Origin: Polytrichum commune
Lineage: Eukaryota > Streptophyta > Polytrichopsida > Polytrichales > Polytrichaceae
NCBI GenBank assembly: GCA_950295325.1
Contig: OX485807.1
Span: 23,533,666 to 23,597,665, forward strand
Direction of reading: 5' to 3'
DNA length: 64,000 bases
In this document: positions 3,119 to 37,669 of the stretch, one piece after another
Layout: each line of letters starts with the position of its first letter
How positions within the stretch are numbered: position 1 is the stretch's first letter
Program-made: the position numbers and the translations under genes
The notes under the pieces: generated by a model
The model's input: only the letters and a program-made list of their open reading frames with translations
The model's database searches: none
What the model was told of the DNA's origin: nothing

Positions 3119-6100
3119 TTGACATAGTAAAAAAGTCCATGTTCAACACCTTCTTAGCACTTATTACTATATACACACCTATATAAACACTTAAGAAGGT
3201 TGCATATGTTTTTTGAGAAGTTGTCACAAATTGAGCTTAAGTCACTTCAATCTCATTTTCATGGCATTGGATCTTTACAATATTTCTTATTTAACTAGAG
3301 CTCATTTTTTGGGATTTTTGGGACATCACAAGACACCAAACCTCTTGAAAGTGATCATAATAGACTCATCTACCTTTGATCACCTCATTTTGTAGAAGAT
3401 TATGATGCTTGTCATTCGTATTCAAGGAGAAGGGGTGCAACTTTGGTTTATCATTGAACATGTCAAACAAATTTCACAAAAAAGGCATATTATAATTTCA
3501 TGTTCATTTGTTAGGGAATGAATATGTCGTGTATCTCGGTCTGAGAAATTAAGATATAAGATATAAGAATGGTGCACAAGAGAAATTTTCTTCAACGTAT
3601 GCGAGAAGTTGGCATATAGGCACATGAACCTTGCACAAGACCAACTTTTGTTGACTAAAGTGATTTGGTCCACACACTTATAAGCATATGAGTCTTGGGT
3701 AATTGACTCGCGTCACTCAAAATTGTCCTACATTAATATGTATTTTGAAAATCTACCACTATGATAGATTTGCATAATTCTTCTAGTGACGATAAACAAT
3801 CGCTAAGGACTCATATGCTAGTTGTGTCACTGTAGGCTTCTAACGTGAGCGAATCTAATTTGTCACTTATCTTAATCGGACACCTACATGTATATAGTGG
3901 TGTGTGGTTAGATGTGGATCTTAGAGTGAACTTTAAAAAGGACATGGGTTTAATTTCTTAAGATTTTTGATCGGGTTTGTACTGGTTGTATAAATTTGTG
4001 CTATACAAATGCAAATAGCGTTTCGTACACACACATGGTCATTTATTCTAGACTTCACTAAGCCATTCTCCATAAGAACATGGTCATAACATGATCTTTT
4101 TTTCATCCCTTAATTGGTGAAATTTCAAGTGCCTTCAGTACAAATCATCTTTGCCGTTTCCATCTTTCATGATGGCTATATATGAAAGAACTCTAAGTCA
4201 ACCATACAAGGGTGACATTGACATGCATGTGCAAAATTTCTACATTGGGTACAAGAACAACAACATGATTTTGGACACTTAGGTTGTCTTTCACCTGCTT
4301 GGAAGGTGAAATATGATGTCACCCAAGGACAATAATGCGGCCCCTGGCCAATGGAGCTACCATACTATGGTGATCTTGTGACCGATACAACTACGTAGTC
4401 ATTTTACATACAAATTAACATATCCAATATTTAGCCATACATCCATAGGGATTGAGTGGAATGATGACTTCATATATATAATACCATGTTCTAGAAAGCC
4501 CCATGGTTGGGTTTAGAGAAAACATTCTTACTTAAGAAATTAGGAGGACAAATGACACTTATGCCACATTATCATGATTTGGAATTGTTTCAAATAAAAT
4601 TGCCCAACACATCCAATATTTGGAAACCCACAACCAATATCGGAACGTATTAGCCTCTAGGGATTGAAAGAGATTGAACTACATGCTCACAATTTGATAA
4701 AAAATTTAAGCTATATTGTCAACATAATTGGGAGGACTTTTAGGATATGAATTTTGGGGGGGGGGGGGGGGGGAGACTTCCTTTTGATAGAGAATAAGGT
4801 ATTTGTTTGTCTTAGGCCCACTTCCCTTATGATTCCCGGCAAGTTGAAGTGCAATAAATTAAGGAACCCATGTGTTGAATATTTGGATTACAATAAATTT
4901 TTATGTTGGTGTAAAATTTGAAATCAAGGTTAATTTTTTGTGGTATTGGGGCTTTATTTAGGATTGTGAAGTTTATTTTTTAGAATGTTGAACCTTGTTT
5001 CAACAAATTTTATAAGGTTGTATCTCCAAGATGGCATTTTAGGAGGCAAGTTGCACATAGGCTTTGATTCATGGACCTGTTCAACCACCCATTCTATTGT
5101 ACATACACGAGAGCAGTGGTTGGATTTAGGGTTATAAATTAATGTCTTTAACCCTATTGTCTACAAGGTTTTGTGCATATCAAATTTGGTTATAAAGTGG
5201 AGCCTGGAAAATCTTTGATGGAAATTGAATTAAACAGTTTCTAACATACATATACATACATTTCCAAGTTGAACACATTCAAAAGGATACCATTTATAGA
5301 GCAACGCTGCGAACATTCAAAGGATACTCATCTTGACTCCAAAAATTGTAAGCTCAACATCGATCCATGTTCCTCACACTTGAATTTGCTCATGTCTTCA
5401 TTCAATTCTAACTTTGTTCCAGGTTTCATATGCATGTCGAATTGCAAAAAGTGGAGTCCATTTAATTACAATTCCCCGGACTTTAAAACCACTTTCATTT
5501 CAATCATTAACGACCTCATACCTTAAGCTTGTTGGAAATAAACATTCTCAGCAAGTTCAAGTGAATTTTGAAATTTGCATGCTTGGGATGCTTGCTTTGA
5601 AAATTTGATGTACACACTTGAGTTTGATTGGTGGACTTTTAAATTGATGGATGAAGCTTACTCTCGAAGATGTCTCTTTGGCTTGGCAGTATATGAAAAT
5701 GCCTGAGGTCGATATAGCCTTGGGCCAACTCTGCGTAGTTTCTGTAATCAAAAGATTGAATGATTGATGGCATTATTGAATCCTTTTGCTCCGGGCCACC
5801 TTTCATGTACACTTTAGGAGAAAATAGAGTCTTTTGGATGGGATACTAGGCACAAACGTTGAGATTTACCTATGAGGAAGACGAGCACCCTCCACACAAA
5901 AAAAAGACTGTCCCTTTTTGTCTTCTCCTCAATCATACATGAGCTATTCAAGGTAATGGAAATGTCAACAAAAATTGAGAGCGGAATGTCAACAAAAAGC
6001 TAAAATAACGGCCTAAAAGGATGGAAAAACTTGCACCCTTTAGTGTACAAATTGATGATACCTAGCAGAGGTTGAAGAAATGATAATAGTACATAGAGTT

Positions 6101-6274: not shown

Positions 6275-9200
6275 CTACACTTTTGGAGGTCGTGAGGGTT
6301 GCCCCGTACTTTTGGCAGCTTGAGCATTTGCTTTGATGACATCTTTACAAGCTTGCTCGAGCATCCCTAGAAACTGCTTCACTACTACAAAAACTTTGAG
6401 AGGCTCAGACTCGTGCTTTACCGCATCCCCACCATAAAAATATACACTAACCTTTTTCAGTTGCACCAGTACTTGGCCGATTTCATTTTGAACCGCCGTG
6501 ACTTCAGCTTCAGCATTCATCACAAATTTCTCCATAGCTGACTGAAACCTGTCTTCAGAAAGATCTATGGAACGCTCTAGACCCCTTACTCCTGGTTCTG
6601 GAGTCCCGTACTTCTTCTCACGAACTTGGGCTCTGATCCCTTGTAATCCATTCACCAATTTCTGACAAGACTGCTTCAATGAGTTCAGGTCTAACCCACC
6701 TGCCCTTTTTACATTGGACAATTCTGCTGGAAGCCCCATCACCATCTCCATCCCCATTTTCTTTGAATCTTCTTCATTCACAGTTTGCGCATTTGGATTC
6801 GCCATTGCTGCTTCTAGTTTTGCTGAGAAGTTGGATAAAGTTGGAGAGCCTGGAGTATTGGGAGTACTAGGTACAGTGTTTGCCAGTCGAGTGAGCCTTG
6901 AAGATTCTGATCTAATGATTTCCTGTATGACAAAGTGAAGAAGAGTTGTTTTGTTGTCTGTTCCTTTCACATCAGCAAGTTTCAGGAGGGTGTCCAACTT
7001 AAAAGCTTGCGCATCGCCCCGCAAGGTACCCATGTTCAGGCGATTTCCAGTCTTTAACACAGCTTCTAAGAGCTTTCGAAACGTCCTATTTCCCTTCAGC
7101 TCCTTGGAGGCTGACTGTATTAAACAAGAGAAACTTGGCGAATCAGGATTCCAAACTATTTACAGTTGATGAAACTGGGAATACATACTGGCAATGAGAA
7201 AGATGAAGTTCCTTTCATTGAAGAGTCGTAGTGGTTAAATAGGGCAAAGATGAACCCAGCCAAACGTACTAAAGCGTGTATGCATTAAAACAAACTTTTC
7301 TATACACCAGAAGGTTGAAGATCAAAAAAGGTTGAACACGGGTTCTCAACTTACCTGAAGGACATGAAGTGCATCTTGTACACTACGTACTTCTTCTTTG
7401 TACTGAGACTGATACAGCATTGCATTAAGTCTTGACCAAGCATTCGGAACTTCCAGTAGTGCATGGAAGAACCGATCTGCAGGACCAAGATCTGTAAGTT
7501 TGCCATCGAATTTTAGAAATTTCCTCTTCTCGTCATCTGAAGGAGCCACCTTGACCAGCGTCTCCAAGACTTCAGGTGCTAGGCCTTCACCTGAATGGAG
7601 TGCGAGAAATAAGCAATCATACATAATAAAGCTGGAGGTCAAGACAGACACTGCCAATATGATTTCCGCAGGTATAAAAATAGTACGGCTCACTTGAACA
7701 GTTTAAAAAAGTCCATCACTAAGGAACAGCAATTTTGTCAGTGTAAACTTTACCCTCAAGCAATGCTTCACAAACTTCATGCCTTGCAAGTCCTAATGCA
7801 CGGAGTTGGATTGCAAAATTGTGAGCCTTTCTTGGATCCAATATAGTCACAGTTTCTGCCTTCTGTGCTGCGGGTTTCTTCATGGCATCTTTCTTAGGAG
7901 CAACTGGCTGTATTCCAAATAGAACCTCCAACATTTGTGGATCGACCCTGCATCCACACGACCAGATCATTCCCTTGACGTTAACTAGTATGTTATCATA
8001 ATGAGGGGTGTGGCAACAGAAGGCACGTTGTTAATGTAATTCTGTCAAGGCTATCATAATTACTTATTTGTTGAATTTGCAATACTAGGAGGATACAACA
8101 AGATTAGCTGGTAGATGTTTTAGCTTCCACGGCTAATATATTGGAATTCAAGCAATTGCTGAAGCTCAAGGAGCAGAGCACATTGCCAAGAGTTTCGAGT
8201 TGGGTATACTTACTCAAAAGACTTGCACACAAACCATGTTATTCATATAATTCAGTCAAGGCTACCATAATTATGATTTGTTGGATTGATACACTGCGAG
8301 GATATCGCAAGATCAGCTCGTAAATATATCAGCTTCCAAGGCTATATTGGAATACAAGAAATTGCTGTAGCGCATGGACTTCACCGAGAACATTGCCAAA
8401 GAGTTTGAGGATGTGTATACTTACTCAAAAGACTTGCTCAAGTCGTCCCAAACCATGGACTGATCTGGAGCTGCCTTCACTTTATCCCAATGTAGAGGCT
8501 TCAGCTTCTGCTTCGGTGGCGAAATCACCTTCTCTCCCTTCTGGAAGCTATTTCCAACTGCTGAAGGTCTTTTGACATTCAATGGCTTCAATCCAGGAGG
8601 CGGTGGTGGTCCCTTACCACCTCTACCACCAGGTGGAGGTGGAGGGGGCGGTCCACCCCGCGGTGGAGGGGGAGGTGGTGGACCCTTTGCACCAGGAGGA
8701 GGCGGTGGTGGTGGTGGTGTTCTACCTTTTGCACCAGGAGGAGGCGGTGGTGGTGGTGGTGGTGGACCTTTTGCACCAGGAGGAGGAGGTGGTGGTACAG
8801 GAGGATTTCTTCCTCCTGGAGGTGGAGGTGGAGGCGGAGGTGGGGCTGGGGGCTGGGGACCTCGAGGTCCAGGAGGTGGAGGCGGAGATGATGCACTTCT
8901 TTCCTCAGGAGAAGGGCCTCCTGGATTGTTTGCAGAAAGAGGAGATGAAGTTGAAGGATGGGGAGCAATTGCAGGAGAATTTATACAGGTATTATGATGA
9001 GGGGCATCATTTGTATGCAAGGAATTAGTTGGAGCATGAGGTCGAGGGGGACTTGAGGAGAGTGTAGGGAGTCCAAGACCCGATGACGACCTGAGAGTAG
9101 CGATCGAGCTGTTTGTAGACATGAAGCCAAGCTGATCACCGAAGGAAGATTGTAAGGATTGATCTCCAACTTCACCAAATGGATTCAAACTGGCACCAAA

Positions 9201-12192
9201 TGGGTTTGTTTTGGCAAAACCTCCTTGCCTGCGGTCGTCAATCCCAACCACATGAGTTGGGGGAGACTGGTGCAGTACTGGGCCAGACGAAGGATAAGAC
9301 CCTGTCTGATCTGTACTAGCACCACCAAGTTTGGTGTGGCCACTGTGTGCAGTTTCATCAATTCTATGGGACCCCCTCCTGGATGGATGCGAGACGAGGT
9401 TCGTCCGATTGAACGTGCCAAGTTTTGGGGGTTGGATTATTTGGGCATGGGGTTGGATTCGGACACCCAGTTGCGCTCTGGGCGATGAAGGAGAGTCTGG
9501 TGAGGACCAGCCTTCTCTGCTTGAATCAACACCCAACGAACTGCCTGCAAATTGGTGCATGTAGTCTTGGAGATTTGGGAATATGACATCTGGAGCTTCT
9601 GCAGGCACAATTGGCAAAGCTTGAATGGTGGCTGGAGCTGGAAGAGGACGTGGTGCTGGAGAAGGAGCACTAATGTAGCTTGACCTGAGAGGAGCATCCA
9701 GCTTCTCAGCTTTCTTCACTAAAAAAGCACTTGGTTGACATCCAACTGGGTATAGATCCACAGTTTCCTCAAACTTCGTGTATCGGTTGTTGTGTAAAAT
9801 TTTCCCAGAAGTGCGAGGCTTCAGCACCTTTGGTTTGTCAGGTTCTTCTTCGAGGTTTGATGATGGGGGCTTCAAGGGAAGTGGAAGAGCAGGGGGCGGA
9901 GTAGGGGCCATCACAAAGTGGCTCTTAGTTTGTGCTCCTCTGAAGTAATTGTTCAGGCCGTCTTGCTTTGCTGCCTCTTTATGTGGCAAAGCAGCGCCAT
10001 GATGGGGAGGGGCATTTTCTTTTAGTGCACAAGGAGAGGGCATAGCTGAGGCCGATTTGAGCCTGCACATTTTATCCTCTGAATCTGCTTGCTCTGAGTC
10101 TTCAGGATGGTCTTCAGAATAGCACCCCTTCTTTGTACAAAAAGGAAGGGTAGAACTTCGCAATAGGTTTGCACTGCCAAGTGCCGAAGGTTGCTCCTCA
10201 TCAGACTTCAGACGGTTGCGCCCACCTAACAGCGTCACCTCATCATCTTCACGCATTGGTGCACTTCTAGGTTCGTCTATATCGTCAGAATCACATGTGG
10301 ATGCGTTATGCTGATATTGGTCCACGTTCACTTCAACCTCCTCACATCCAGCCCACTCTGCAGCAGCATTCACAGAAGGAACTGATGGAGGCAAACTCTT
10401 CGTCTGTGGAGAAGACATATGTGGCTCCACTACAACTGAGCTCAGTTTTTCGTCTTTGCCATCCTCTTGCATATGATGTGACATAAAACTTACACGCCTC
10501 TCCGATGGTGTATAACGTACACTATTGCTGTTATTGTACAGTGGATTGAAGGAAGAAACGTCCCCGGACACATAACCGGTTACAGAATTCTTATCACTGC
10601 CATATCCCCAAGGCTTCTGTCCTGATGCTGATTTAACCGGACTTGGATACAGGAGCGGTTTTTCTCCTACCAAGTGTTTCCTGATCCGCTTATGGTAAAT
10701 ACATAGAAATGTCAACACTACAGCGAGAGTCACAAAAACGCTCACTAAGACCGCAGCTGCTATAGTTGAAGAGGATGTCACTGTTTCTGCACCCACTACC
10801 GGTCCAGCAAGTGGCGAATACACAGGGGAGTCAAGATTTGGAGATGATATTGGGGATGTGGCAGCAAGAAACCTTCTAACAGGACGGGAAGTTCCGTGAT
10901 CAAGTTGGGTGTGATCCATTGAGAGAACCCTTGATATGATCTGTTTGTGTCCTTGGCGCTGTATCGAACTGGTGGTCTCTGAAAACACATGAAAAAAGAG
11001 AGAGGGGATGAAAAACAGCCAAGACAGAGAGAGAAAGCTCCATAGGACACTTCCGACATCACATTTGAGCCTGAAGCTTTAGAAACAGCTCTATAAAGCA
11101 GCCTAGCCAATAAACCCCAGCCTACAGCAAGTCTCCAAAAATAGAAACTAAAGCCATATGAAGGAGTTTCGAGCCATACCAACATATTTATGCATGTAAC
11201 TTGATGGATCAGTTGCAACTTGCTCCTTGTAGCTCTCTAAGAGCTCAACAATCACCTGAAAGACGGGGAATGACAGATTCTGAGATCCTGATATCTTAGT
11301 GGTAGCAGAGGACTTTGTTTACAATTTTCGATTAACCAGCTATATTGATCACAAACAGCCCATTACATCCTGGGAGTTACCAGCTATATTGATCACAAGG
11401 CAATCCCTTGAATTCTTTGAATAAAACCAGTTAGAATGGAATCCTGAGGTTAGGATTTTAATCCCTTGGGTCACTGACCTAACATTCTCTAATTATTGAT
11501 TTCTATTGAAACGGTCACAATGCAACCGGTACAACAAAGCCTTCATAAAGCAGCTCAATCAAGACTTATTATTTGGTTGGTAAAGTAGGATGTCTGCGGG
11601 AAAGCTACTTCAAGCAGGCCCTCATGTTCGCACAGACGAAATGCTGTGTTAATTCATCAGGAAGGCGAATGCTTAGGATTGTGACTTTGAATGGGTCAAC
11701 AAATACCAGGCTGAGATGTTCCACTCTACATCTTCGTGTGTTGTGGCACCACTAACAGGCATATAAGTCTCGCAAAAACGTCACAAGGTTGGGAAAGATC
11801 TGTGCTCCATTCCTCAAACTGCGAAGGGGGATTCCATAGCCACCTTCTACTTGATGAGCTCGTATGATGGATAACAATATGAGATGACGACAAAGTGACA
11901 TGATGAATCCGGTACATATTTCTAACAATCTAAACAGACCATCTCCAAAACAAGGAGCAGATACTGTCAACACCAACCCAAAGTCGTGATGAGATGTAAA
12001 CACTACCGCTGTATGCTAAGGTCGTTAGGTTAGAAACAACCGAAGAGAAGCAAGTGCTCATATTTTGAAGGAATAGCTGAGATGTGCATGTCACAAAGGA
12101 CAATCTCGGTGTTGGTAAATAGGAATTACTTGCAGCTGGTTAAGGGTCATACAGCTATTATCCTCTTTCGAAGCATTCACGCTAGATTCCTC
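6275..12192 (-). CDS. Class I (transmembrane) formin, 5' end unresolved
   Basis: Actin-nucleating formin. Exons read on the minus strand are 12192-12130, 11255-11180, 10978-8425, 7947-7754, 7590-7355 and 7114-6275 (TAG stop). All junctions are GT-AG and all phases join, giving 1320 residues. In order, the protein has a short predicted outside-facing part, a membrane helix coded at about 10763-10695 followed by a basic stop-transfer stretch (HKRIRKH), a long Ser/Pro-rich cytoplasmic region, an FH1 domain of oligo-proline blocks (about 8890-8597), and an FH2 domain starting at KPLHWDKV. The FH2 hallmark GNRLNMGTLRGDAQAF is in the last exon. Known family role: class I plant formins anchor actin nucleation to the plasma membrane or cell wall. 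The first two exons listed are inferred from splice sites and phase. The start codon and signal peptide must lie further upstream and were not found. FH2 exons are very certain, the 5' exons less so. Confidence 0.93.
8043..8440 (-). repeat. Tandem duplication across a formin splice donor
   Basis: Two copies of a unit of about 200 bases lie side by side with a period of 211. One copy (about 8256-8440) contains the real end of the large formin exon and its donor GTAAGT at 8424-8419. The other (about 8043-8228) lies inside the intron and carries the same exon end and a second GTAAGT at 8213-8208. The segment shared exactly around the donor is 8204-8226 and 8415-8437. The intronic donor is therefore a ready-made decoy. 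Confidence 0.85.
8597..8890 (-). other. FH1 proline-rich coding segment
   Basis: This part of the large formin exon encodes repeated blocks of 5 to 10 prolines separated by short GAKG, GGR or RGG linkers. Known role of FH1: binds profilin-actin and feeds it to FH2. The DNA is an imperfect triplet-like repeat (GGTGGAGG on the plus strand) and is prone to length change. It also generates long glycine-rich open frames on the plus strand that are artefacts. Confidence 0.9.
10695..10763 (-). other. Formin transmembrane segment
   Basis: Encodes about 23 hydrophobic residues including AAAVLVSVFVTLAVVLTFL, followed at once by basic residues. This is the single-pass helix that distinguishes plant class I from class II formins. 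The orientation, with the short N-terminal side outside and FH1-FH2 inside, is inferred from the basic residues that follow. Confidence 0.85.
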
Positions 12193-32866: not shown

Positions 32867-33875
32867 TGTTAGCCCATGAGCTTTGCAGCAGGAGTGCGTA
32901 TAGATGATAATGAGGAAGACGAGTGAAATATAAAACTTTTTTCTTCTTTTCTTTCCACTTTGTTATTGTGATGTCACCAAACTTGTAATTGAGCTTAAAT
33001 TCGTGACCCTGCATGTGATTGTGTTAGTTGGATTCAAGAGACTCAACATTTCAACAACACTATACAAATTGCACATTAATATTTTGAATTCGCTAGAGGA
33101 AGAAAGAGGGAGCAACTGGAACGATGAACTTGACACATCACCTGGATTGTGCTCACCTCCGTGCAAGCAATCACAGATAAGCATTGATGCGGAATCAATG
33201 TGTTAGAGAAGGAGTCTTGAAAGATTGAATTGTCATGTCCGAGCACTCCAGTGCCAACACGAGCGTCTGCTCGGTTTATGTGGACGGATTTCACCATAGT
33301 TGTGAACGACTTGAAAGCATTTATTGTAGTTGGGCTTGATAAAGAAGAAGGATGGCTAAGTGTTTAGAGAGGATGTGGGAGTTTGGTAAATTTTGCTGAA
33401 GATAGAGGACCCCAAGCGAGAGAAGTTGAATTGCATGAACATGGGACATTGAACTTGAACTTCCCACTAGTAAAGCATGTGCCACTGGCACTGGTGCGTG
33501 GTAGAGGGAAGGGTACCGTAGGTTCATAGCTGGTTCGACACATGTTAGCCGAATAATTAATTAAAGTGGAAAATTTGCATTCGGCTAAAAAAAGAAAAAT
33601 AAAATAAAATTTCAACTTTTGCTACAATTTTTTTTAAAATCGGCTATAAGTAAGAATGTACATGTGAAATTTATTCAATTAATACAAATGAATGTTTTCT
33701 CATTCTCAAAAATATTCAAATGCCTTAAAATTTGATGTCTTTTAACCTAATTGCAGAAGAGGTGATGGCTTAGTTGAACTTAACCTAAACCTACTTACCC
33801 TAATCAAGGTTTGAGGCTCCTTTGAACACTCTTTTCATGTGTTTGAGCTTTGAAGTGTGTTTGGTGAAATTTTGA

Positions 33876-36240
33876 GTGTTCCCGTTGCTTTGCTTGTTTG
33901 AGCTTTTAGTTCAAGTCAAAATGATAAAGTCAAAGACTTTGAGTAGTATTTTCATGTCACTTTTCAAAGAAGAGATGCAACAGTCAGTGGCACGTGATTT
34001 CGAGACTCTAAAGACTAAGATGGATGAGGAAGCGGCTTTGCAAGTAGAAGTGGTGAAGCGTCCAGTTGGAAGGCCACGAGGCACATTGGGGGCAACGTTG
34101 TTGACTCCTAAAGTGGAAGAAGAGGAGCTAACTTCCAAAAAGCTCAAGGTTAGGGGTCATTACACTAATTGGTTTGAGCCTTCTCTTTGGGATCCCATTT
34201 ATGCTGCTGTTAGAAAACATAGAAACATCAACAATGCATGTAAGTACTTGAAGATGATGTACAAAAAACCAGGAGAAAGCTATGGCATTTACGAGAAGCT
34301 TGCTAGAAGCAATATGTATGAGTAGTTCACATCTACAGGAGAACTCAAAGATGCTTACAAAAAGTATGTAGATGAAGGATCTTCCCATTTCCATGGAGAA
34401 AACCAACATTGTCCTATTTTATCCAATCATTAAGAATTAAAGGAAGCTATCATTGAGATGCTACATGCACATAGGAAGGCGGGACAACCTCTCTATGCAA
34501 GATCAATCCGCAATCTCATCATCCCCTTTATTCAAAAGAGGGCTCCAGATCTACTTGTTCAAGAAAGCTCAACTTCATTCAAGGTATCACTACAAATGTA
34601 TAGCCTACAGACTCAAACAAATAGAGACTCTTGGACTCCCCATCCATACTCCTCTTATTTGGTTGATTAACTGCTGGTCCGTTCATACCTCTACAATGTT
34701 TCTTACATGGTTGAAATTGACTCATCCCTTAGTGAAAACAATATTTGTTCCTGCCAATTGCATAAATGTTTTACAGCTAGCAAATGTTATCCTCCAACGA
34801 CCTTTCAAGCATTGTCGCAACCCTTGCTAGGTCCCTTAATAATCTTGCCAATTTTCAATTCTAGCAAAGGTTACGAGTCGCTAACCCTTCGCATTCCGCC
34901 ATGCTAATGGATAGCTCCTCTTACCCCGGACCAATAGTTCATAGGAGGGAACCAACCCTCCTACTTTGCTTTCGGGACTCACCCCTTAATCGGTAACCCA
35001 TTTCCCCAATGTGGACTTCCATCCATGGAAGTCCAATCCTATGTTGATCATCGCATTGCCGGAGCAACACTACAACAACCCGAACCATACTAGGCAACTA
35101 TGGCCTCACAATGGGCCAATGCCCATGGAGGCCGTGCCGTTCGGCCTCGGGTGGGTGAGGCCACACCACCTCACCCATATAAGCCTCTAGGACTCTACGC
35201 GGGGCCCCTACCCCACCGTCAACCAACCTCTTGTCTCTCTATCAAGAGTTGGGGCCAAGTGGACATTTTCCTTTAGCTGCTGGGCCTAGAACCCTACCCC
35301 CCCGGCAGCTTCAGACCATCATAACTTCCTTGTATGATGTCCGATCATAACAACCAACCACTCCATCTTCATCTACGCTTCACGTAGATGAAGATGGACT
35401 CCTCACTTGCCCCATTCGGGCAAGTCTTGAGGAAGTTATGCCTGTTTGAACCTTGGCAGTCCCGGGAATCACTCCCAGGCACTGCTGTACCAGGGCGCTG
35501 TCCCGGGACAGCGCCCCACTCAAATGGCCATAACTCCTAGCTCACACCTCCGATTGAGGTGTTCTTGAGCATTCTAGAATCACCACGCCATGAGCTACGC
35601 ATAGCTCATGGCCTTACCCTTGTGCCTCCTAGTCTCCGTGGGTGGGAGGCGTTCCCAACGCCCGGGGCCCTCACCCACACTAGGATCACTTGGGCCCTCT
35701 CACCAACGGCGCCACAAGTCCCGGGTGTCACTCCGGGGTCCCCCTTGTGCCCATGGTGTTTCGGGCACTCATAATGGAGAGGTGCGCGACAAGCATACCT
35801 TTCGGAACCAATACGACAAATGGAGCATGAATCAAATATCTCAACAATTAGATTCAGGGGAGGAAAAAAACATCAAACTCGATTCTAAGCTAAGTGTTTT
35901 AAAACCTCTCCTATGTTCATGGTTGTATGAGGCTTGACTTAGCATTTACAAAAAACAAATGGTACAAATTGGATGGAAACAATGTGACATTGTTAAAGCT
36001 TTTCAACATGATTTTCAAGAGGTTGCCTTATGCGCAAATTTATCAACACCACTTTTCAAAGAGGAAGCAACCCAAATAGAAGAAGTTACAAACAAGGATG
36101 ACACAATAGAAGACATAGAGCCAGATACTTGCATTACAACAATCATGCAAGAGTCATTAGAAAGGGCAGCTGAGATCAGCTGTTTACATGGAGCTCGAGT
36201 TTCATCTCTAAAAAACGCAACTAGAAAAAAATATGCTTAA
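33876..36240 (+). pseudogene. pogo-like DDE transposase, broken
   Basis: From 33876 the frame encodes an AT-hook-like KRPVGRPRG, then a predicted DNA-binding segment (YAAVRKHRNINNACKYLKMM), stop codons near 34323 and 34434, and ELKEAIIEML...ARSIRNLIIPFIQKR. After a frame change at about 34590 comes LINCWSVH and VPANCINVLQLANVILQRPF, equivalent to the family's LIxDxWSVH and VPANC...QPADVxxQRPFKH blocks. The catalytic Asp is Asn here, and the block with the first catalytic Asp appears deleted. The solo LTR splits the gene just after RPFKH. Behind it the frame resumes with NQYDKW and KLSVLKPLLCSW, has a TGA where the family has Trp (near 35935), and ends at 36240. Function is lost. Confidence 0.8.
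34813..35791. mobile_element. Solo LTR, 979 bases, with AGCAT duplication
   Basis: Starts TGTCGCAACC and ends GTGCGCGACA, so it has the TG...CA ends and short inverted TGTCGC/GCGACA termini of an LTR. The flanking 5 bases AGCAT are identical on both sides (34808-34812 and 35792-35796). It contains no gag-pol coding sequence, so it is a solo LTR left by recombination between two LTRs. It is clearly more GC-rich than its surroundings (CCCGGG and GGGGCCC patches at about 35460-35720). A CATATAAG at about 35178 could be a TATA box in plus orientation. Confidence 0.9.
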
Positions 36241-36760
36241 TCTGCACAAAAAGGTAAGTCTTTTGGAAGGTTCCGATGTACAAACATCTGCAAGATTTAA
36301 TGGAATGTTTTGGGGCTGATTGCATTAATGATGTTTTTGATGTACAGAGGCTGTGCAAACCCTAACGAACACATTCCAGGGCCAAACTTCATATCCCAGA
36401 TGGCCGAATCCCCACCACCACCACCACACCAATAATAATCTGAACCTCCGCATCAACAATAACTCCTCCTCCACCATCACAACCACAACAATCTTTAACC
36501 TCTGTAGCATCTGCAAGTTTACATGGATCTGCAACAGTTTCATCTCTTACAAATCTCACACAAAGTACTGTAACCACATACAACCTCGGTGGTACTGCTC
36601 AAACCACATCCCCAAGTGCGACCTGGAATATGCAGAGTCCAAGTTTAACCAGGTTAGTCAGATGAAGCAATAATCACTGAGTTAGTGCAACCTTCCTCTG
36701 TAGATTCATTACCATCTGTGGCACTTCGGAATACTACCCTAGGTGTACATGGCTGCGAGA

Positions 36761-36890
36761 TCGAGCTGCGGAGGAGGAGGATCGAAGACCTGCGGAGGAG
36801 GAGGAGGATCGAGCTAGATTGAGCTACGGAGGAGGAGGATCGAGCTGCGGAAGAGGAGGAGGATTGAGCTTTGGAGGAGGAGCTGCGAGA
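36761..36890. repeat. GAG/GAGCTGCGGAG-type minisatellite
   Basis: About seven imperfect repeats of an 18 to 24 base unit built from GAGCTGCGGAGGAGGAGGATC variants. It lies within the 3' part of the pogo-like element, after the transposase stop. The Ser-rich frame on the minus strand here is a by-product of the repeat. Confidence 0.8.
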
Positions 36891-37086
36891 TTCCTCAGCT
36901 CTCACAGCCGAGGCTCCCCTGATTTCGAGGCGTTCTTTAATTCTGTGTTGTGATTCCGAGGTGCTTATGCTCAAAATAGAGAAGCTCTTACATATTCGTT
37001 TGTGACCAGGCTGTTACATTTGTTTTTAGTGTGGAATGTGTTTCACAAGTGCAAAGTACCTTTTGATGTGACTTGGTGTCTTTTAA

Positions 37087-37495
37087 CACGGGGAGGTCAC
37101 TTCATTGTCAAGTTGACACCACGTGCGGACAAAGTTTGCTACCCCTATATTACATGCCATATATAATTTTAAAATTTATGATATTTTTTCTACATATACA
37201 TAACCATTGATAGTATCTTTTGTATACTTTTTTGAAAATTTTAGTCATCTTCATTTTTTTTAGTAATTGTTTTAGTCCAATTATGTGTCATTCTAGTTAG
37301 AAATGGTATGTTTTATGAAAAAATAAATCATCAAATTTCGTTACAAATTTTAACCATGTCATAGGTACTGTGTATATCTATTCATGAAAAAAAATTGATA
37401 AAATTTTGACCCATTTTGGTGGTGCAACTTACCAAAAGAAGATTTTTTTTGGGCGCACGTGGTGTTCAACTTGACAATGGAGTGATTTACCCGTG
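37087..37495. mobile_element. hAT-like MITE, copy 1 (409 bp)
   Basis: Begins CACGGGGAGGTCACTTCATT and ends in the inverted form, with terminal inverted repeats of about 41 bases. The flanks are TCTTTTAA (37079-37086) and CCTTTTAA (37496-37503), an 8-base duplication with one mismatch. It sits inside the right part of the pogo-like element. The 8-base duplication points to the hAT superfamily, although such long inverted repeats are more than hAT elements usually have. Confidence 0.88.
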
Positions 37496-37669
37496 CCTTT
37501 TAATTTATTATGGCATCAAGAACATAAATTTATGTATTTATAATTTAGTTCGTCATATGTTGACTTTGATTTCAAAGGATTTCAACAACATTAAGTGATA
37601 ATTTCCAAAAAAAAATCGACTTCTTTTTTTTGAATTATTTAGTGTCGGACCAGCTATGAACCTACGGTA

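Follow-up and report, generated by a model that had tools for sequence, protein, structure and literature searches.

A decayed pogo-like transposon hosting a solo LTR and a MITE in Polytrichum commune, and a captured cullin gene fragment in its sister copies

Results

The stretch analysed here, referred to as the window, comprises 64,000 nucleotides of the Polytrichum commune genome (assembly GCA_950295325.1, contig OX485807.1, positions 23,533,666 to 23,597,665) and harbours a 4.15 kb pogo-like DNA transposon, hereafter the host element, that contains two smaller insertions. The host element occupies 33514-37669 on the plus strand including a TA on each side (33514-33515 and 37668-37669), the element proper being 33516-37667, and is delimited by 26 bp terminal inverted repeats, at 33516-33541 on the plus strand and 37642-37667 on the minus strand, in which 25 of 26 positions pair; with the TA included, the arms (33514-33541 and 37642-37669) are 28 nt long and 96% complementary. 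Inserted in the transposase gene is a 979 bp solo long terminal repeat (LTR; 34813-35791, plus strand) with ends TGTCGC...GCGACA, flanked by plus-strand copies of the pentamer AGCAT at 34808-34812 and 35792-35796. Near the right end lies a 409 bp miniature inverted-repeat transposable element (MITE; 37087-37495, plus strand) with inverted ends of ~47 bp, bordered on the same strand by the octamers TCTTTTAA (37079-37086) and CCTTTTAA (37496-37503), which today match at 7/8 bases. The two guests stand side by side, neither inside the other, and the arrangement is one host with two guests rather than the three-layer nest described in an earlier reading of the window's sequence, the initial annotation.

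The guest insertion sites were compared across further host copies from this genome, whose seven large contigs (C1-C7) together hold ~406 of 407.8 Mb; loci fetched from it are numbered with the prefix L. A search with the whole element, in which 40 of 5,814 candidates were scored, listed the window, 14 other host copies and many LTR copies, and among these 40 no other copy of the MITE. All 14 host copies were fetched, seven of them being extended, and the 60 bases from either side of each insert were joined and searched for in each copy. Of the 14, 13 have an uninterrupted LTR site and 12 an uninterrupted MITE site; L014 falls short of both and L017 of the latter. The aligned pieces are gap-free at both sites. 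An earlier count, on shorter stretches of the same copies, had given 12/14 and 8/14 respectively. A single AGCAT is present exactly at 11 of the 13 uninterrupted LTR sites. Of the 12 empty MITE sites, nine read exactly CCTTTTAA and every one begins with C; the T that opens the left-hand duplication of the MITE in the window therefore derives from a C-to-T change. The initial annotation had proposed a search for host copies free of the two inserts, and such copies exist; the contrary outcome it had named, other copies in which LTR or MITE sequence is an original part of the element, was not seen in any sister copy spanning the sites.

That both guests are full length and lie inside the inverted ends might suggest that they have belonged to the element family from the outset, an explanation that has next to no probability given their absence at the site from 13/13 (LTR) and 12/12 (MITE) sister copies spanning it, and the occurrence of both families elsewhere in the genome with duplications of their own. 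Within the copies examined, the empty sister sites thus rule out a native origin of either guest. The insertion of the solo LTR, with its AGCAT duplication, into the transposase gene is therefore borne out by its absence from every sister copy spanning the site.

Fetched sister copies in which both ends were located have TA on either side, one of them with GATA instead of GGTA. The sequences flanking the host element in the window match two other loci, at C2:51.1 Mb and C2:3.4 Mb, with 76-80% identity, and the context is consequently a low-copy repeat; in both paralogous loci the flanks abut, and the window flanks joined over one TA equal these loci in length, the paralogs themselves reading TG at that point. 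The element flanked by TA and ended by 26 bp inverted repeats is thus as the initial annotation described it, with an empty outer site at two loci, and the boundaries and target duplications it gave to the base are all present, save that the MITE duplication, also called readable, has one mismatch.

The LTR belongs to a family with two-LTR members. Among 21 LTRs with flanks, an exact 5 bp duplication was found in five, which look like solo LTRs, and four of five bases match in two more; most of the remainder are one LTR of a two-LTR element or have unclear ends. Two further LTRs also have an exact duplication, and three two-LTR relatives (L069/L070, L071/L072 and L082/L083) have matching outer pentamers. 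One two-LTR relative has LTRs identical to one another over 982 bp, and the window LTR differs from each of them at 2 positions in 978-979. An integrase zinc-binding domain (Integrase_H2C2, E 1.7e-7) in one internal piece of a two-LTR relative points to a Ty3/gypsy-type family.

Members of this LTR family were also observed in and near other host copies: L018 carries its own solo LTR (3859-4831, duplication TTTAG), L017 has one from 4635, at its GGA-rich array, and another lies 423 bp outside the host copy L012 (257-1230, duplication TACCG). At C4:46.2218-46.2318 Mb (L086, L082, L083), the flanks CTTC-AATAA ... AATAA-GGAT border both a solo LTR and, a few kb away, a two-LTR element; the pair probably represents one duplicated insertion, one copy of which collapsed to a solo LTR. 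Separately, L019 contains an unrelated insert of ~1 kb (about 1848-2850) located 14-17 bp from the position of the window's LTR.

A genome search with the MITE sequence, in which 40 of 2,140 candidates were scored, gave 39 other copies at 95-97% identity; among these best 40, the window included, the 8 bp duplication is exact in 36 and retains seven of eight bases in four. Since L061/L062 and L063/L064/L065 share flanks, the 40 represent 37 independent insertions. The inner end of the MITE matches the genome at 505 places in the forward and 510 in the reverse orientation with at most one mismatch, against 0 and 0 for a reversed control. An 8 bp duplication and ends beginning CA..GG fit the hAT superfamily, a target pattern of which, albeit one not general to all hAT elements, is nTnnnnAn. 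Both positions of this pattern are found in 4/37 independent MITE targets, and at least one in 20/37. Domains for hAT dimerisation are plentiful in this genome (150 of 1,060 candidates scored), yet none has been linked to the MITE ends. Hence, of the 'hAT-like MITE' of the initial annotation, a MITE with an 8 bp duplication near the right end, absent from sister copies, stands, and the hAT label is consistent with its features; judged from these ends and duplications, a hAT identity is plausible. Derivation from another superfamily generating 8 bp duplications, such as P, Merlin or a Mutator-like group, is a possibility to be taken seriously, if short of an even chance: the poor fit to nTnnnnAn speaks for it, and no transposase with the MITE ends turned up, though none was sought, while the duplication length and the terminal bases fit hAT, and hAT domains are abundant.

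The host copy in the window has itself decayed extensively, which the initial annotation overlooked. The first piece of its broken transposase frame (33876-34325, plus strand) terminates after 34322 in an in-frame TAG, at a position encoding Trp in sister copies. Further along, ~477 bp have given way to a 12 bp filler (34592-34603, plus strand). All 13 sister copies reaching across this point still have the lost segment, in which several sisters show an N-T-D-Q-T motif with the first putative catalytic Asp. The second such position is an Asn codon (34669-34671, plus strand; L-I-N-C-W), for which most sisters shown have Asp and L009 likewise has Asn, and the third is also Asn (34783-34785, plus strand; Q-L-A-N-V), with Asp in sister copies (Q-P-A-D-V in most). 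As the first is deleted and the other two are replaced by Asn, all three putative catalytic Asp residues are gone. Of the 31 changes private to the host parts in the window, 27 are transitions, 22 of these being C to T or G to A. The copy is thus dead as judged from its reading frame, a functional window copy being ruled out by the broken frame, the partial deletion of the core and the Asn residues at the other two putative catalytic positions. Another incomplete copy, L014, stops at about 1290, ~10-15 bp from the start of the window's deletion, and the next 7.5 kb fetched contained no further element sequence.

The relative ages of the three insertions can be approached in two ways. Because sister copies keep empty guest sites, the host preceded each guest; as the LTR and MITE are side by side, nesting gives no order for the guests themselves, and of the 'clear relative chronology' of all three in the initial annotation only the priority of the host follows from the arrangement. 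The second source is the number of changes private to the window, which is 2/974 in the LTR, 6/409 in the MITE and 31/2,279 in the host (Fisher p = 0.010 for LTR versus MITE, 0.0017 for LTR versus host and 0.82 for MITE versus host); terminal branches in the corresponding trees are 0.002, 0.033 and 0.028. It is likely from these counts, though not proven, that the host was followed soon by the MITE and much later by the LTR. Several considerations weigh against this order. Private counts are upper bounds on age, as changes can predate insertion in the source copy, which leaves MITE before LTR short of proof; the comparison set of 36 other MITEs was taken from the top scores among 2,140 candidates, a choice that may depress their own private counts (0 to 4, relative to six in the window); and resolution among the host branches is poor, with support below 60 at several of them. 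The nest as a whole is read from a single assembly, in which a fault is conceivable. With nesting silent on two adjacent guests, the LTR could have been the earlier, or the two could defy ordering; this is rather improbable in view of the two differences in ~979 bp that separate the LTR from its young relative, set against the six private changes in 409 bp and the altered duplication base of the MITE, and of the low p value for that comparison. The preferred order remains host, MITE, LTR.

The superfamily of the host element was assessed mainly through its sister copies. A 126-residue frame of L007 matches the DDE_1 domain at 24.3 bits, relative to a Pfam cut-off of 22 (E 2.7e-5, model positions 96-150 of 177). 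A D-D-37-D pattern was recognised by eye in the sisters: some have NTDQT, most have IDCW and QPAD, and 37 residues lie between the last two Asp. In addition, the host transposase has 30% identity over 69 residues to a family with clear DDE_1 and HTH_Tnp_Tc5 domains (E ~1e-5 against single loci). Pfam found no DDE_1 in the window copy's own pieces, the sole match being sub-threshold and unrelated, nor any significant domain in the 406-residue frame of L015, hence no DDE_1, HTH or CENP-B domain there; a positive control for the DNA-binding domain, L099 of a second pogo family, did yield HTH_Tnp_Tc5. A PDB search with the same L015 frame gave 0 matches at E up to 1, and further frames of the 3' region gave no Pfam matches.

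Elements of the pogo superfamily duplicate TA and have inverted ends mostly of 40 bp or less, as the host element does; pogo ends usually begin with CAGT, which those of the host element do not. This difference, together with a DDE_1 match barely above the cut-off in one sister copy and the lack of a recognised HTH or CENP-B domain in the first 406 residues, where the second family yields DDE_1 and HTH_Tnp_Tc5, might place the host in another DDE group that duplicates TA. Such a placement is unlikely in light of the L007 match, the similarity to the clear DDE_1/HTH_Tnp_Tc5 family and the spacing of the putative catalytic residues, which is within the DD29-56D range that PMC7386202 gives for pogo. 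The TA, the 26 bp ends, the DDE_1 match and the D-D-37-D pattern fit the descriptions in PMC7386202 and PMC7325037, and an assignment of the host element as pogo-like is consistent with them. The 'pogo' label of the initial annotation is accordingly upheld in part: the TA, the ends, the sister's domain match and the D-D-37-D spacing agree with it, while the window has no DDE_1 of its own and no DNA-binding domain was recognised.

The genome also contains the second pogo family. A profile search of the genome with DDE_1, in which 150 of 984 candidates were scored, placed all 150 above the cut-off, so at least 150 such loci exist. Seven of eight fetched (L094-L100; on C3, C7, C2 and C4) form one family, whose aligned pieces are ~95-99.6% identical and whose ends, where visible, read TACAGTC...GACTGTA in five of the seven copies. 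L099 retains a 574-residue open frame with DDE_1 (E 5e-36) and HTH_Tnp_Tc5 (E 1.3e-14). By its domains and ends, this is classed as a canonical Tigger-like pogo family of near-identical copies.

In four sister copies, the host element contains part of a cellular gene. In L012 (4,163 bp with its TA ends) and L015, a cullin domain (PF00888, E 4.4e-18) is encoded downstream of the GGA-rich tandem array, antisense to the transposase; the window copy has the array (36759-36882, plus strand), just downstream of which the antisense fragment of the long sisters is absent. When the cullin stretch was used to search the genome, with all seven candidates scored, it was found nearly complete in the host copies L012, L015, L013 and L017 and in pieces in L020 and at C5:8.07 Mb, and matched at 96% a gene at C2:57.704-57.709 Mb that has cullin exons on both sides of the match, identifying the donor. 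Positions 602-1279 of L012 align with C2:57707685-57708360 as exon-intron-exon, with 651/676 positions identical, and two exons adjoining at 447/448 of the cullin profile are separated by 166 bp in the captured stretch, this being the intron. The inclusion of an intron means that the element copied genomic DNA of the plant's own cullin gene. The donor was found by the DNA search; a protein search listed it, at C2:57.7 Mb, together with another cullin, at C3:43.5 Mb, that matches at 51%. The fragment is absent from the window copy, L007-L011 and L016, all of which align across the place; the trees left unsettled whether copies without it form one group.

Elsewhere in the window, a formin gene lies on the minus strand at 6275-11078; one of its frames encodes an FH2 domain (E 2.3e-47), and the neighbouring frame has a sub-cut-off start of FH2 (26.4 bits, relative to 34.8) and a long proline-rich stretch, while a 42 bp tandem repeat at 8660-8796 is part of this gene. 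In the genome as a whole, 13 matches to dynein heavy chains, spread over five of the seven large contigs, indicate motile sperm and hence probably a seedless plant, and 28 matches to NAC-domain genes indicate a land plant.

Discussion

Taken as a whole, the initial annotation was sound as to the elements, their sites and their duplications, with the layer count and full chronology set aside and the pogo and hAT labels holding in part. The history proposed for the locus begins with the insertion of a pogo-like cut-and-paste transposon at a TA within a low-copy repeat. This copy then decayed through C-to-T and G-to-A changes, in-frame stops and the deletion of ~477 bp, at which the 12 bp filler is probably the mark of end-joining repair. 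The MITE inserted near the right end, presumably moved by some transposase making 8 bp duplications, and a Ty3/gypsy-type retrotransposon entered the transposase gene, recombination between its LTRs probably leaving one behind. This account of host insertion, decay, MITE arrival and an LTR reduced to solo form is regarded as very highly probable overall, its order of the two guests less firmly.

A guest-in-host nest of this kind is ordinary in plant genomes, and the relatives of the host are of more interest than the nest. The locus itself is a clean textbook case, in which a single stretch of chromatin combines three insertions with their three empty sites and separate divergence clocks. Its wider value lies in the host family, as DNA transposons that copy host-gene fragments are known from flowering plants, and land-plant pogo elements have been described as scarce and without amplification. 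Gene capture by elements with terminal inverted repeats, including mariner-type ones, is described in rice and maize (PMC8903248). In PMC7386202, land-plant pogo elements are reported from 23 eudicots only, without significant amplification, to which PMC7325037 adds two Selaginella sequences. A literature search turned up no report of such a pogo family in a bryophyte, which is not proof that none exists. The most far-reaching interpretation, given somewhat better than even odds, is that a divergent branch of pogo in a seedless land plant took up, in antisense, an exon-intron-exon segment of the plant's own cullin gene and amplified with it, that some copies, including that in the window, later lost the fragment, and that a second, young Tigger-like family also spread, such that pogo flourished where it was thought nearly absent. 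Since the sisters combine fragment capture and pogo in one seedless-type plant, the early history of pogo in land plants becomes directly testable.

The guests each resemble known plant elements. The solo LTR shares with plant Ty3/gypsy solo LTRs the TG...CA ends, the 5 bp duplication and two-LTR relatives with an integrase zinc-binding domain, that domain being the part of pol seen here, and differs from them in nothing notable. The MITE, with its length of ~410 bp, inverted ends, 8 bp duplication and roughly a thousand end matches genome-wide, is similar to plant hAT-type MITEs, although no hAT target preference was seen in its family.

The host family combines typical and divergent features. 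Like the pogo superfamily of IS630-Tc1-mariner elements, which includes Lemi of eudicots and a Selaginella clade, it has TA duplications, ends under 40 bp, a DDE_1 match and a DDxD spacing within the range in PMC7386202. By contrast, its transposase is divergent, with N-T-D-Q-T, D-C-W-S-V-H and Q-P-A-D motifs, it has neither a DNA-binding domain recognised by Pfam nor a conventional CAGT end, and it resides in a seedless-type land plant, whereas PMC7386202 lists eudicots only and PMC7325037 adds two Selaginella sequences. Compared with the Pack-TYPE elements, including Pack-Mariner, as characterised in PMC8903248, the carriers here also keep transposase sequence, their fragment keeps an intron and the window copy is without the fragment, yet the sister copies share with Pack-TYPE elements the arrangement of a host-gene fragment carried between inverted ends.

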